DNA of 33,225 nt. It comes from Acidimicrobiia bacterium (GTDB lineage: Bacteria > Actinomycetota > Acidimicrobiia > Acidimicrobiales > Aldehydirespiratoraceae). The stretch's first letter is position 1; each line of letters starts with the position of its first letter. A program made the position numbers and the translations under genes. Positions 27,441 through 33,175 of the stretch are shown here, piece after piece. The notes below the pieces were generated by a model. It saw only the letters and a program-made list of their open reading frames with translations. It was not told where the DNA came from and made no database searches. The stretch covers positions 1 through 33,225 of the forward strand of contig JAUIML010000013.1 of the NCBI GenBank assembly GCA_030432715.1, read 5' to 3'.

Positions 27441-28331
27441 TCAGACGGTGAAGCGACCGCCACGGATCCGTTCGGCCTCCATCAGTTCGACCTCGTGGGC
27501 GCCCGACACCACGATCGCCGGGTCGGGCACGAAGTCGAGATCGGGATTGCGGTCCTCGTAGTCGACGGCGTCGAGCATCATCCGCATCGCGTTGAGGCGA
27601 GCCTTGTGCTTGCTCTGTGAACGAATGACCGTCCACGGAGCCGCGCTCGTGTGCGTGCGGCGCAGCATCTCGTACTTGCGTTCGGTGAAGTCGTCCCAGT
27701 ACTCCTGGGCCTGCACGTCGATCTCACTCAGCTTCCACTGGCGCAAGGGATCGTCGCGCCGGCGATCGAAGCGCCGTTGTTGCTCCTCCTTGGTGACGGA
27801 GAAGTACAGCTTGACGAGCACCGTCCCCTGGTGGACCAGGTCCTTTTCGATTCCGACCACGCCACGAAGGAAGTCCTCGTGCTCCTTCTCGGTGCAGAAC
27901 CCGAACACCGGCTCGACCATCGCCCGGTTGTACCAACTGCGATCGAACAGGACGATCTCGCCCGCGCTGGGCAGGTTGGCCACGTACTTCTGGAGGTACC
28001 ACTGGCCCCGTTGCTCCTCGGTGGGCTTGCCGAGGGCGACGACTCGATAGTGCTTCTCGTTCATGTAGCGGGTGACACGGCGGATGGTGCCGCCCTTGCC
28101 CGCCGCATCGCGTCCCTCGAAGAGCACCACCATCTTCATGTTGTTCGCCTCGAGGTGGCGTTGCAGCTTCAGGAGTTCGACCTGGTACGGGATGAGCGCT
28201 TCTTCTTTGTGGATGCGCTTCTTGAGCTTGCGTCGTTTGGCCTTCTCCGCGGCGAGCGCGGCACGCAGGGCCGCCACCTCGCCGTTTCGAACACCCGATC
28301 GGTCGTCGTGATCTGCCCGGCGCTCGCCCAT
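27441..28331 (-). CDS. ppk2: Polyphosphate kinase 2
   Basis: The product is 296 aa. An N-terminal charged helix (about 17-45, LRAALAAEKAKRRKLKKRI) may form a coiled coil. Walker A is the canonical FEGRDAAGKGG (71-81), Walker B is EIVLFDRSWYNRAMVEPV, and the lid reads QWKLSEIDVQAQEYWDDF. The segment APWTVIRSQSKHKARLN ends the catalytic domain. It probably makes NTP from NDP, or polyphosphate from NTP. The start at 28331 follows gggag, 65 nt after a 53-codon gene that is probably co-transcribed. The neighbouring copy lacks the Walker A Asp, so this is the better candidate for the main activity. Confidence 0.9.
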   Translation of the reverse strand: MGERRADHDDRSGVRNGEVAALRAALAAEKAKRRKLKKRIHKEEALIPYQVELLKLQRHLEANNMKMVVLFEGRDAAGKGGTIRRVTRYMNEKHYRVVALGKPTEEQRGQWYLQKYVANLPSAGEIVLFDRSWYNRAMVEPVFGFCTEKEHEDFLRGVVGIEKDLVHQGTVLVKLYFSVTKEEQQRRFDRRRDDPLRQWKLSEIDVQAQEYWDDFTERKYEMLRRTHTSAAPWTVIRSQSKHKARLNAMRMMLDAVDYEDRNPDLDFVPDPAIVVSGAHEVELMEAERIRGGRFTV

Positions 28332-28396
28332 CGGGCCAGTCTCCCATTCGTGCGGCCGAGACGCATGAGTCGGAAGGCCTGAGCCGACGGCGCCGC

Positions 28397-28558
28397 TCAG
28401 CCGAGCACGGACTCGACGGCTTCGAGCACCGACGCCGAGCTCGCCGGCTGGGGCACGACGACGAGCGCAGACTTCTTCGCGAAGTCGGTCGCCTCGATGA
28501 GGACTCGCGCCCGCGAGTCGTCGACATCCCACATGGGCATCGGCAGGACTCGAGACAT
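28397..28558 (-). CDS. Small protein of 53 aa, function unknown
   Basis: The ATG at 28558 has aaggagg about 6 nt upstream, one of the best ribosome-binding sites in the window, so the gene is probably real. The protein begins MSRVLPMPMWDVDDSRARV and ends in ASVLEAVESVLG, with an amphipathic middle (EATDFAKKSALVVVP) and no cysteine or membrane helix. It lies upstream of ppk2 on the same strand. A longer in-frame opening to 28678 lacks a ribosome-binding site. I recognise no family. Confidence 0.58.
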   Translation of the reverse strand: MSRVLPMPMWDVDDSRARVLIEATDFAKKSALVVVPQPASSASVLEAVESVLG

Positions 28559-30394: not shown

Positions 30395-30469
30395 CTACTC
30401 GATGCGCAGGCCGGAGATGGCCCGGCTGATCACCAGCTGCTGGATCTGCTCGGTGCCTTCGAAGATGTC
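30395..30469 (-). pseudogene. Acyl-CoA dehydrogenase, 3' remnant
   Basis: Reading the minus strand, the last 24 codons encode DIFEGTEQIQQLVISRAI followed by SGLRIE and a TAG at 30395-30397. EGT.QIQ.LVI.RA is the C-terminal signature of acyl-CoA dehydrogenases, enzymes of ~380-400 residues. Upstream (above 30470) the homology ends at once and the frame hits a TAG three codons before DIFEG. The rest of the gene has been replaced by the sequence leading to the CBASS operon. Either an element integrated into the 3' end of the gene, so that the other part lies beyond the window, or a deletion removed it. Confidence 0.8.
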
Positions 30470-30471
30470 GT

Positions 30472-30492
30472 GGGACTATCCGGGACTTATCC
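30472..30492. repeat. Imperfect direct repeat at the island junction
   Basis: gggactatcc (30472-30481) and gggacttatcc (30482-30492) are head-to-tail copies differing by one inserted T. They start 2 nt after the dehydrogenase homology ends, where a recombination core or flank would lie. Confidence 0.45.
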
Positions 30493-30570
30493 ACTGGTGT
30501 CCGGTTTGGGCCTTTGTGCCATCTGACCTGCGGAAACGTCGACTGGCGCTGTCCGCTAGTGACCGCTGAT

Positions 30571-30612
30571 CATCCCTACTCCGAGCCGAAAGTAGGGATA
30601 AAGGTAGGGATG
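30571..30612. repeat. Triple gtagggat motif, one inverted
   Basis: atccctact (30572-30580) is a perfect inverted repeat of agtagggat (30591-30599). A further gtagggatg (30604-30612) repeats the motif directly and can pair with 30571-30579. The arrangement resembles integrase/excisionase arm sites; a terminator for the CBASS operon (stop at 30645) is the alternative. Confidence 0.5.
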
Positions 30613-30644: not shown

Positions 30645-31106
30645 CTAGGCGGCCCTACGGCGTTTGCTACGGCGCCGATTCGGATCCGATCTGCGCACGG
30701 GACCGGTGTGGTCGCCCCCGCTTCCGTGCCAGGTACCGGTCGCGCGCCAGAACTCGTAGTGGAGGAGCCACTCACACGACCACGGCACAATCGTCTCTGC
30801 GATCAGGTCATCGCCGCACCACTGACCCGCCTCATATAGACAGAGGCTCCCGTCGGCGTAGATGTGCGGCAACTCGCCTTCTTGATCGGCAACGAGCGCC
30901 GGGCTTCGGACCCTCACCACCGGATGGAGCGGAGGCCGGTAGATCACCTCAACCCGATACGTCGCACTGATCACCGACGGCTGAAGCGCGCCGACCCAAC
31001 GGAGCGTCCCAGCCCGCAGAGCGACCTGACCGTGCGGGTACAGCCGACGCAGCGCCTCCGCATTGCGCACTAGGCCCCGCAATCGACTACTCGCCATAGA
31101 AGTCAT
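30645..31106 (-). CDS. CBASS E2-like (ubiquitin-conjugating-like) protein
   Basis: The product is 153 aa. The pattern ELPHIYADGSLCLYEAGQW, then ETIVPWSCEWLLHYEFW and TGTWHGSGGDH, is that of the stand-alone prokaryotic E2 proteins of short type II CBASS. The candidate catalytic cysteine is C89 (SLCLY), with H81 in the PH.Y position; C97 and C111 are extra. The C-terminal ~18 residues are very basic (RRRSKRRRAA) and not part of the fold. Published work on an E2-only CBASS showed that such a protein modifies the CD-NTase and tunes its activity. No E1 (Cap2) or JAB protease (Cap3) gene is beside it. Its ATG overlaps the CD-NTase 3' end by 20 nt. Assignment is from motif and context. Confidence 0.8.
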   Translation of the reverse strand: MTSMASSRLRGLVRNAEALRRLYPHGQVALRAGTLRWVGALQPSVISATYRVEVIYRPPLHPVVRVRSPALVADQEGELPHIYADGSLCLYEAGQWCGDDLIAETIVPWSCEWLLHYEFWRATGTWHGSGGDHTGPVRRSDPNRRRSKRRRAA

Positions 31107-32220
31107 GGCGGCGCACCGGCCGGATGGCGCTCCCGGTGCCGACGCGGCCCGATTCGGTCACGCTCAACGAGCTCGCCGCAGCCGCTGCCGCGAAGCGCTG
31201 AGCAACTGTTGCCGCGGCCGCCCGCACCGGGCCCTCGCCCAGGGATTGACCCACGACGTCAGCGAACGCGTCGATCCCGTCGGGCCGATCCCAGCTCTCC
31301 ACATCGGCGAGTAGCTGGGTCACCCAGGCATCGAAGTGCGCCTTGCGGCCCTCGTGGGTGTTCCACTTATCGGCGAAGTTCTCTTCCTCATGGGCCGGGT
31401 TCGGGACCCACCACTCGCCATCGCGGATCTCGATCGCTCCGGTCAGTCCCGCCGCGACCTTGCGGTAGGTCTCGTACACGTCGAAGTCGCCACCGTACGC
31501 TCGGCCAGCCAGTGTCGTGATCAAAATCGATGGCGGCTTCTCGCCGGGGTTGTCGGCGAAGAACTCGTCGCGATGCAGCTTGAGGAGCTGGACCGCCCGC
31601 TGCAGCGGGGTCCGCACCAGCCATCGGGGGACGTCTTCGACCTCGCGAGCCAGGGCCTCGCCGAGGCGAGCCCGGGCGACAGCGACGGTGTCGCCCATCA
31701 CGTTCCAGAACCAGTCGGCGTAGCCGATTGGGTTGCTGTGCTGCCACTCTCGAAGGTCTCGGTCTGACAACAACACCGCTTCCGGTGCGCCGTCGTCGTC
31801 GGGGATGACCGGGACCACGTCCATGTGGAACGCGTCGTCGGGATAGACCAGCGTCCAGCATCGCCCCTTCTCCTCAAGTTCCGGTGAGCCGTTGAGGTCG
31901 CCTCGCTCGGCGATGTAGGCGTCGAGCAGCTCCTTGGCTTGGGCGCGCAGTTCGGCTTGGGTGACCGACGTCTTGGCGATCGGGCGGAGGAAGACCAGGT
32001 CGATGTCGAAACCGCTGTCACGATTCGGGCGCAGCACAGTTCCGAGCCGAAAGGACCCTTGCGGGTACACGTCGGGATCGCCGATGCCGTACTCCACGAG
32101 CCACTCCCCCAGGTCCTCATACAACGCAACGGCTCGCTCGAACTGCTCGGGGGTGAGGTCGAGCGTGTCGACCGTGGCTTCGAGCAGGGACGAGATGATC
32201 GGTGCGTCAGGTTCAGACAT
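31087..32220 (-). CDS. CBASS CD-NTase (cGAS/DncV-like nucleotidyltransferase)
   Basis: The product is 377 aa. The NTase core has GSFRLGTVLRP (G55, S56), FDIDLV (D72, D74) and the third carboxylate in FHMDVVPVIP (D134). After phage infection such enzymes make a cyclic oligonucleotide from NTPs, here probably cGAMP-like since the effector is a patatin; the actual product cannot be read off. An OAS1-C-like helical part follows (TPLQRAVQLLKLHRDEFF). The C-terminus ends RPVRRHDFYGE; in type II systems the extreme C-terminus of the CD-NTase is the conjugated end. The ATG overlaps the capV stop by 8 nt. Confidence 0.92.
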   Translation of the reverse strand: MSEPDAPIISSLLEATVDTLDLTPEQFERAVALYEDLGEWLVEYGIGDPDVYPQGSFRLGTVLRPNRDSGFDIDLVFLRPIAKTSVTQAELRAQAKELLDAYIAERGDLNGSPELEEKGRCWTLVYPDDAFHMDVVPVIPDDDGAPEAVLLSDRDLREWQHSNPIGYADWFWNVMGDTVAVARARLGEALAREVEDVPRWLVRTPLQRAVQLLKLHRDEFFADNPGEKPPSILITTLAGRAYGGDFDVYETYRKVAAGLTGAIEIRDGEWWVPNPAHEEENFADKWNTHEGRKAHFDAWVTQLLADVESWDRPDGIDAFADVVGQSLGEGPVRAAAATVAQRFAAAAAASSLSVTESGRVGTGSAIRPVRRHDFYGE

Positions 32221-33175
32221 GCACTTTCTCCTGGGTATGGAACGGTTCGTAGGGAGCGGGAGTATGGGCGAACAGCTCCCCGAGCTCGGGGGAGCGGTTG
32301 CGGCTCTCGGCGTGGGCCCGGCCGATGAGCTCGGTCGCCGTTACCCGGTCGAGCGATTGAGTGCCCTCGGCGATGGTCGCGTCGACTCGGATCACGTTTG
32401 AGCGGCCGACGATGAGCGCCGCGTGGCTTGTCGCTGCCAGAGTTTGGCCGCGCAGGACGATGTCGAGCCCGGCGCGGCGCCAGGCGAGGAGACCGCCTCG
32501 GTCGAGGCTGGTCGGTCGGTTGCGGAGCTCGGTGGTGGTGCCAACGTTCAGGACGCGGATACGGCCGCGGTCTCCGCCGAGGCGGTCGAAGCACTCGGCA
32601 ACGCCGACCATGGTTGGGTTGTTGGCCCAGACGCCGCCGTCGATGAGGCGGTGGTGCTCGACGGTGGCCGCTGGCAGGTAGGTCGGCGCAGCGGTGGTGG
32701 CCATCGCGACGTCGACGGCTCGTACTCGCCAGTCGCGTCGAAGCTCTTGGTGGTGCGGTGTTCGGAATAGGTGCACGTGATCCGCCGCCAGGTCATAAGC
32801 CGGGATGGCGAGGCGGAGCTGGGAGTGCCCGAGCACTGCGTCGCCGAACTGTTCTTCGAGCACGGCTCGTAGTCCGTCGGGGTCATATCGCGGTGCCCGC
32901 AGGCCGCGGAGCGGACCGCGTCGCGGCGGAAAGATCTCGCGGTGATGGGAGACGTAGAGGTCGAGCAGCTCGGCGGGCCGGTGTCCAAGTCCGAGCCCGA
33001 GTGCGAGCAAGCCGCCGGTCGAGGTGCCCACGACGAGGTCGAAGTGGTCGCCGATGCGGGTGCCGAAGTCTTCTTCCCACGCGGCGAGGGTTGCGGCGGC
33101 GAACATGCCTTTGAGTCCGCCGCCGTCCAAGCTCAGGACCTGAAGCTGGGTGTTGTCCTGCGTTGTGGGATCCAT
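32213..33175 (-). CDS. capV: CBASS effector: patatin-like phospholipase
   Basis: The product is 320 aa. The oxyanion loop is LDGGGLKGMF (16-25), the nucleophile elbow VGTSTGG (49-55) with S52, and the dyad aspartate D179 is in LIDGGVWANNP. The protein has no signal peptide, so it acts from the cytosol on the inner leaflet. CapV effectors bind the cyclic nucleotide made by the CD-NTase and destroy membrane phospholipids, killing the infected cell. It is the first of three overlapping genes. A possible upstream gene stops 4 nt before its ATG. Confidence 0.92.
   Translation of the reverse strand: MDPTTQDNTQLQVLSLDGGGLKGMFAAATLAAWEEDFGTRIGDHFDLVVGTSTGGLLALGLGLGHRPAELLDLYVSHHREIFPPRRGPLRGLRAPRYDPDGLRAVLEEQFGDAVLGHSQLRLAIPAYDLAADHVHLFRTPHHQELRRDWRVRAVDVAMATTAAPTYLPAATVEHHRLIDGGVWANNPTMVGVAECFDRLGGDRGRIRVLNVGTTTELRNRPTSLDRGGLLAWRRAGLDIVLRGQTLAATSHAALIVGRSNVIRVDATIAEGTQSLDRVTATELIGRAHAESRNRSPELGELFAHTPAPYEPFHTQEKVHV

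Follow-up and report, generated by a model that had tools for sequence, protein, structure and literature searches.

In long type II CBASS (cyclic-oligonucleotide-based anti-phage signalling system), which carries the E1-E2 fusion Cap2 and the JAB protease Cap3, the CD-NTase is regulated via conjugation of its C-terminus, and according to Jenson et al. (PMC10097602) type II CD-NTases end in Gly or Ala across 1,583 proteins. The E2-only (short) form is known from the CdnG-E2 system of Serratia marcescens (PDB 8hsb, 8yjy, 9kkb). The role of the E2 in E2-only CBASS was published in 2024 by Yan et al. (PMID 38649411), a study that, by its title and the passages citing it (PMC12804361, PMC11153139, PMC12135389), credits the E2 itself; a table in a review (PMC12135389) gives Y405 in Serratia as the position at which E2-driven cGASylation occurs, with credit to Yan et al. 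(2024). CdnG is 407 residues long in 8hsb, with F-Y-G-E at its end; Y405 is therefore the aromatic residue of that terminal motif, and processing there would take off the final two residues. Here we analyze a three-gene operon on a 33,225-base stretch of DNA (the window), which is the entire contig C292 of a metagenome-assembled genome (G000; 3.68 Mb, 82.9% complete). The same E2 recurs in G041, a genome from the same family, and the host is most likely an acidimicrobial actinobacterium. With a probability of about 0.8 we read the operon as an E2-only type II CBASS with E2-driven tail processing, probably located at one terminus of an integrated element, and thus as a further case of a system for which a solved complex and a published study already exist.

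The operon encodes, in order, a patatin phospholipase, a CD-NTase and a stand-alone E2 (Table 1), with overlaps of 8 nucleotides between the first two genes and 20 nucleotides between the last two. Comparison with Serratia covers the E2 and the CD-NTase. Both systems have a lone E2, the catalytic cysteine C89 of the window aligning with Serratia C101; both CD-NTases have an identical FYGE end (...HDFYGE in the window and ...NTFYGE in CdnG); and the Serratia complex is the top structural match for both window proteins. Judged from the sequences, the window counterpart of Serratia Y405 is Y375. The systems differ in that identity in the fold alignments is 32-33% for the E2 and 25-26% for the CD-NTase, and in that the window E2 has a single lysine, K148, in its basic tail. 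Patatin effectors occur in long type II CBASS too (locus L112); unlike those systems, however, the visible operon of the window has neither E1 nor JAB, and its CD-NTase ends FYGE and not in Gly or Ala.

Table 1. Coordinates of the operon, its key codons and the features of its flank within the window.
Feature	Position	Strand	Basis
CapV-like patatin phospholipase effector gene, 320 aa	32213-33175	minus	profile matches; S52 (GTSTG), D179 (DGG)
CD-NTase gene, 377 aa	31087-32220	minus	PADLOC, Pfam, Foldseek; D72, D74, D134
Stand-alone E2 gene, 153 aa	30645-31106	minus	PADLOC, E2 fold of model; C89, H81
Codons of F374-Y375-G376-E377, predicted E2 processing/conjugation site	31090-31101	minus	FYGE end shared with Serratia CdnG
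Codon of catalytic C89 of E2	30840-30842	minus	aligns with C101 of Serratia E2
Candidate attR core: last 26 acyl-CoA dehydrogenase (ACAD) codons (stop included), 5' part missing	30395-30472	minus	matches to ACAD 3' ends
Three ATCCCTAC copies, candidate recombinase arm sites	30572-30611	one plus, two minus	doubled pattern

Assignment of the first two genes rests on profiles, residues and structure. The patatin matches NCBIfam NF041079 (CBASS_lipase) with 254 bits (cutoff 200), PADLOC PDLC00757 (phospholipase effector) at E=2.3e-97 and Pfam Patatin at 7.7e-26, with CapV entries of the PDB as a further basis; its CBASS_lipase match and the overlap of its gene with that of the CD-NTase place an effector of known kind directly beside the cyclase. 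The CD-NTase matches PADLOC PDLC00780 (cyclase) at E=4.9e-106 and Pfam DncV-like_NTFase and SMODS, both above cutoff; its top Foldseek match is 8yjy_A (Serratia CdnG, 5.2e-17), and D72, D74 and D134 are invariant in 6/6 aligned CD-NTases, so that profile, residues and fold agree on a CD-NTase with intact catalytic residues. In its structural model the tail (residues 351-377) has a predicted local distance difference test score (pLDDT) below 50, as a flexible substrate would be expected to have.

The E2 was recognized by PADLOC (E=1.8e-41), while Pfam and NCBIfam give no match at E<=1. Its model has an E2 fold, with the Serratia marcescens CdnG-E2 complex as the nearest structure, and C89 and H81 are invariant in all 22 aligned E2s, the window's own included; the operon thus contains what defines the short type II form, a stand-alone E2 with its catalytic cysteine. 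The window E2 also matches the C-terminal part (426-538) of the PADLOC 'Cyclase' model PDLC00816, the earlier part of which matches the CD-NTase, and CD-NTase-E2 fusions seem, from this model, to exist. Among viral contigs, a close scan found no relative and an alignment scan found four. An earlier note made from the DNA alone had placed three overlapping minus-strand genes at these coordinates, named S52/D179, D72/D74/D134 and C89 as their catalytic residues, identified them as CBASS and proposed an E2 fold as the test of the 153-aa protein; each of these points is borne out by the results above. Its remark that an E2 working without E1 is little explored is dated, since the Serratia complex has been solved (8hsb, 8yjy) and Yan et al. 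(2024), by title and citing passages, treat this very subject.

The C-terminal tail of the window CD-NTase extends past an aromatic-Gly step as it does in Serratia. The tail sample took in the C-terminal ends of all CD-NTases immediately adjacent to a lone E2 in the fetched loci, 34 in all. F-x-G followed by 1-9 residues terminates 28/34 of these proteins, as against a mean of 2.3 such ends in shuffled 20-residue tails. At the middle position of the motif 27 of the 28 have Y, F or H and one has A, and an alignment of 29 CD-NTases from lone-E2 loci retains F374 in 26 sequences and G376 in 27. Named hosts of motif-bearing loci belong to Actinomycetota, Bacillota, Cyanobacteriota, Bacteroidota and Pseudomonadota, and a Phycisphaerae metagenome-assembled genome also carries the motif. 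Among control cyclase genes directly upstream of E1-E2 genes, the motif is absent from all ten, and eight of the ten end in a bare Gly or Ala.

Plasmid records with an E2 match were fetched non-randomly (19 of 70), and control plasmid records were fetched for seven of 201, of which L115, with no CD-NTase beside Cap2, yielded no row; in control L017 the E1 portion falls outside the locus and is based on a 42-bit match. Left out were L037 (no CD-NTase, transposase beside the E2), L069 (CD-NTase off the contig), L106 (no gene found), L107 and L108 (remote E2 match, no CD-NTase), L010 (weak match), L016 (E2 outside the locus), repeats of the same loci (L008, L055, L056, L063-L066, L102, L103), and the second CD-NTases of L024 and L066 that do not adjoin an E2. 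Three loci were retained despite a missing CD-NTase N-terminus (L006, L030, L036); the neighbour of L021, and L073-L100 except L077, lie outside the examined set.

The proposed mechanism follows from these features and from Serratia. Judging from the protein families, phage infection would lead the CD-NTase to make a cyclic nucleotide, which would switch on the patatin phospholipase, so that the membrane is degraded and phage spread is stopped. The lone E2 would regulate the CD-NTase: C89, probably aided by H81, would attack the flexible tail at the aromatic-Gly step (F374-Y375/G376-E377), releasing the last residues and, by analogy with Serratia, holding the CD-NTase on C89 as a thioester, which would then be passed to a lysine to give CD-NTase chains of higher activity. 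The anatomy of the tail suggests that the cleaved peptide bond is the energy source, in which case neither E1 nor ATP would be needed. We give a little better than an even chance to the wider proposal that E2-only CBASS in at least six phyla operates by such E1-free, ATP-free transpeptidation, with the E2 combining protease and ligase roles on an Atg8-like CD-NTase tail, F-aromatic|G-x(n), and drawing activation energy from the cleaved peptide bond. In the precursors of Atg8/LC3 and ubiquitin, residues past the C-terminal Gly step are clipped before conjugation. The likeness goes no further than analogy: a beta-grasp fold is missing from the CD-NTase, the E2 itself apparently does the processing, and the Serratia site given in the review table is, unlike theirs, the aromatic residue that precedes the Gly.

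Two candidate acceptors were considered and set aside. An acceptor on the E2 through a fixed lysine was rejected: lysine columns are common to at most 5/22 E2s, and a fixed acceptor is unsupported because the E2s share no lysine position. K214 of the CD-NTase is invariant (29/29) but was dropped, as its place in a conserved core segment may reflect a structural or catalytic role.

Several observations weigh against this reading of the operon, the scatter of E2 lysines just described among them. The contig runs for just 50 bases past the patatin start on its upstream side, and the genome is incomplete; a ThiF-family E1 relative lies elsewhere in the genome, in two pieces (contigs C70 and C299); and the NCBIfam cGAMP-synthase model NF041078 scores the CD-NTase at 44.4 bits, far below its cutoff of 150. 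The 34 loci are not independent, distinct tails numbering 30 with the motif in 24 of them, and a Fisher test on the 34 therefore overstates the contrast with the controls. The strict motif is absent in 6/34 (L035, L039 and L040, which have an NMGG tail, and L038, L070 and L105), and in three of the 34 the last residue is Gly or Ala, as in the controls, two of these tails being FYGA. On the control side, L109 and L111 have no Gly/Ala end, and L113 is annotated as an adenylate/guanylate cyclase and not as a CD-NTase, so that the CD-NTase controls number nine, with the motif in 0/9 and Gly/Ala in 7/9. L035, L039 and L040 are near-identical plasmid loci in which NMGGTVPDDNCW replaces the F-x-G tail, even though each has a CD-NTase, an E2 and a patatin.

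The alternative that survives best, unlikely as it is, is that the window shows part of an ordinary type II CBASS whose Cap2 or Cap3 gene lies upstream, past the contig end, with the lone E2 as an accessory. The 50 bases beyond the patatin start leave the upstream region out of view, and the incompleteness of the genome leaves such genes room. Within what can be seen, the earlier note's statement that E1 and JAB are missing holds: none occurs in the visible operon or downstream of the E2 gene, and the visible operon has no Cap2 E1-E2 fusion gene. Across the source genome Prok-JAB has no match, nor has the E1-E2 model PDLC00853 at E<=0.001, a model that is a poor probe for Cap2, as 233/296 genomes match it and most of the matches listed cover the ThiF-like part alone. 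The place out of sight can be viewed in the two closest relatives, acidimicrobial loci (L004, L005) that have the same order of patatin, CD-NTase and E2 with short overlaps and E2s 59% and 54% identical to the window's. They differ from the window in CD-NTase ends of FHGPDR and FHGPDQ; upstream of the patatin lies a divergent helix-turn-helix (HTH) gene and not Cap2, and no E1 or JAB is found among the five neighbouring genes tested in the two loci, four of which were tested in a second search as well. The search for an adjacent E1 or Cap2 that the earlier note had suggested therefore came out clear in these relatives, as far as it could be run, with the window's own upstream region off the contig. 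Its description of a complete defence system stands for the three genes with intact motifs, and completeness itself is unproven because the contig ends where it does. The CD-NTase tail, being of the E2-only kind, also argues against a partly seen long system.

It is less probable still that the E2 is charged in trans by a housekeeping E1 of ThiF/MoeB type after another protease has trimmed the tail. The ThiF-family gene in pieces on C70 and C299 could supply such an enzyme, but its presence says little because ThiF-family relatives occur in 12/14 control genomes; moreover, residues past the aromatic-Gly step are kept in 28/34 E2-only systems, and the Serratia work, by its title and citing passages, credits the E2 itself. 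That the E2 has no catalytic role and acts on the CD-NTase as a scaffold or inhibitor, as the solution of the Serratia proteins as a complex (8hsb, 8yjy) might suggest, is the least probable of all, given that C89 and H81 are invariant in 22/22 aligned E2s.

Other observations concern the surroundings of related operons. The divergent HTH genes upstream of the patatin (L004 2775-3755, minus; L005 2749-3711, minus) match the PADLOC candidate PDC-M03B, that of L005 with a HIRAN match below cutoff, and may possibly encode a regulator of this CBASS lineage. Proteobacterial lone-E2 operons (L027, L032, L033, L034, L035, L040, L041) have a divergent upstream ImmA/IrrE metallopeptidase gene, accompanied at all of them except L034 by an annotated HTH gene. 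On the cyanobacterial plasmids L031 and L037 a CBASS-type E2 and a SAVED gene adjoin a separate multiubiquitin/E2 operon (with ThiF in L031 and Mov34 in L037). In L066 (6626-11860; G277:C126) a second CD-NTase of 513 aa and a CD-NTase-like frame, with no second E2, lie ~1.1 kb 3' of the CD-NTase-E2 pair.

On the 3' side of the E2 gene lie an ACAD 3' fragment and then a convergent WYL regulator, and from the arrangement of sequences there the CBASS operon probably occupies one terminus of an integrated element. The fragment, in which similarity to ACAD starts at about CCAC-GAC-ATC, gives matches of 77-83 bp at 93-97% identity to the ACAD 3' ends of its own genome (contig C69) and of 5/6 genus relatives, the sixth (G001) giving a match of 27 bp alone at a contig edge. 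In the genome the doubled ATCCCTAC pattern is found twice: in the interval that separates the ACAD fragment from the E2 gene, and directly past the intact ACAD of contig C69. The arrangement of core and repeats in the window (30395-30611) is mirrored on C69 (L054 10060-10320), a reversal that fits an attR and an attL. Against an element, a single match to the reversed control pattern is likewise present in this genome, and G004 has one copy of the doubled pattern some 1 Mb away from its ACAD. Agreement with five relatives is 70-71/75 positions for the window ACAD end and 67-71/75 for the C69 end, a divergence that, at the level of sequence, appears to decide little. Neither the window contig nor C69 is joined to the middle of the putative element; no integrase was seen, though no integrase search was made; and an empty att site is not shown by G006, where the WYL gene does not adjoin ACAD, while the other genus relatives have no full-length match to the WYL stretch. 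At the C69 end (L054 10297-10461) a short frame that looks integrase-like by eye is followed by a PCMT fragment at the contig end, a candidate chimera or scar; an integrase start after ACAD on C69 was dropped, since Pfam finds the PCMT fragment alone in that 55-aa stretch. Elsewhere in the window, two different PPK2 polyphosphate kinase genes (PF03976; 26550-27416, plus, and 27441-28532, minus) stand tail to tail with a 24-base gap.

Reading the window operon as an E2-only CBASS carries a mechanism established in one proteobacterium over to what is probably an actinobacterium. Within the sample compared, the tail signature separates E1-free from E1-dependent CBASS in several phyla, and if the proposal is true the tail motif would predict from sequence alone which CBASS run without E1. 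If the E2 supplies its own activation energy by cleaving the tail, this would be a simpler form of ubiquitin-like conjugation than the E1 cascade.
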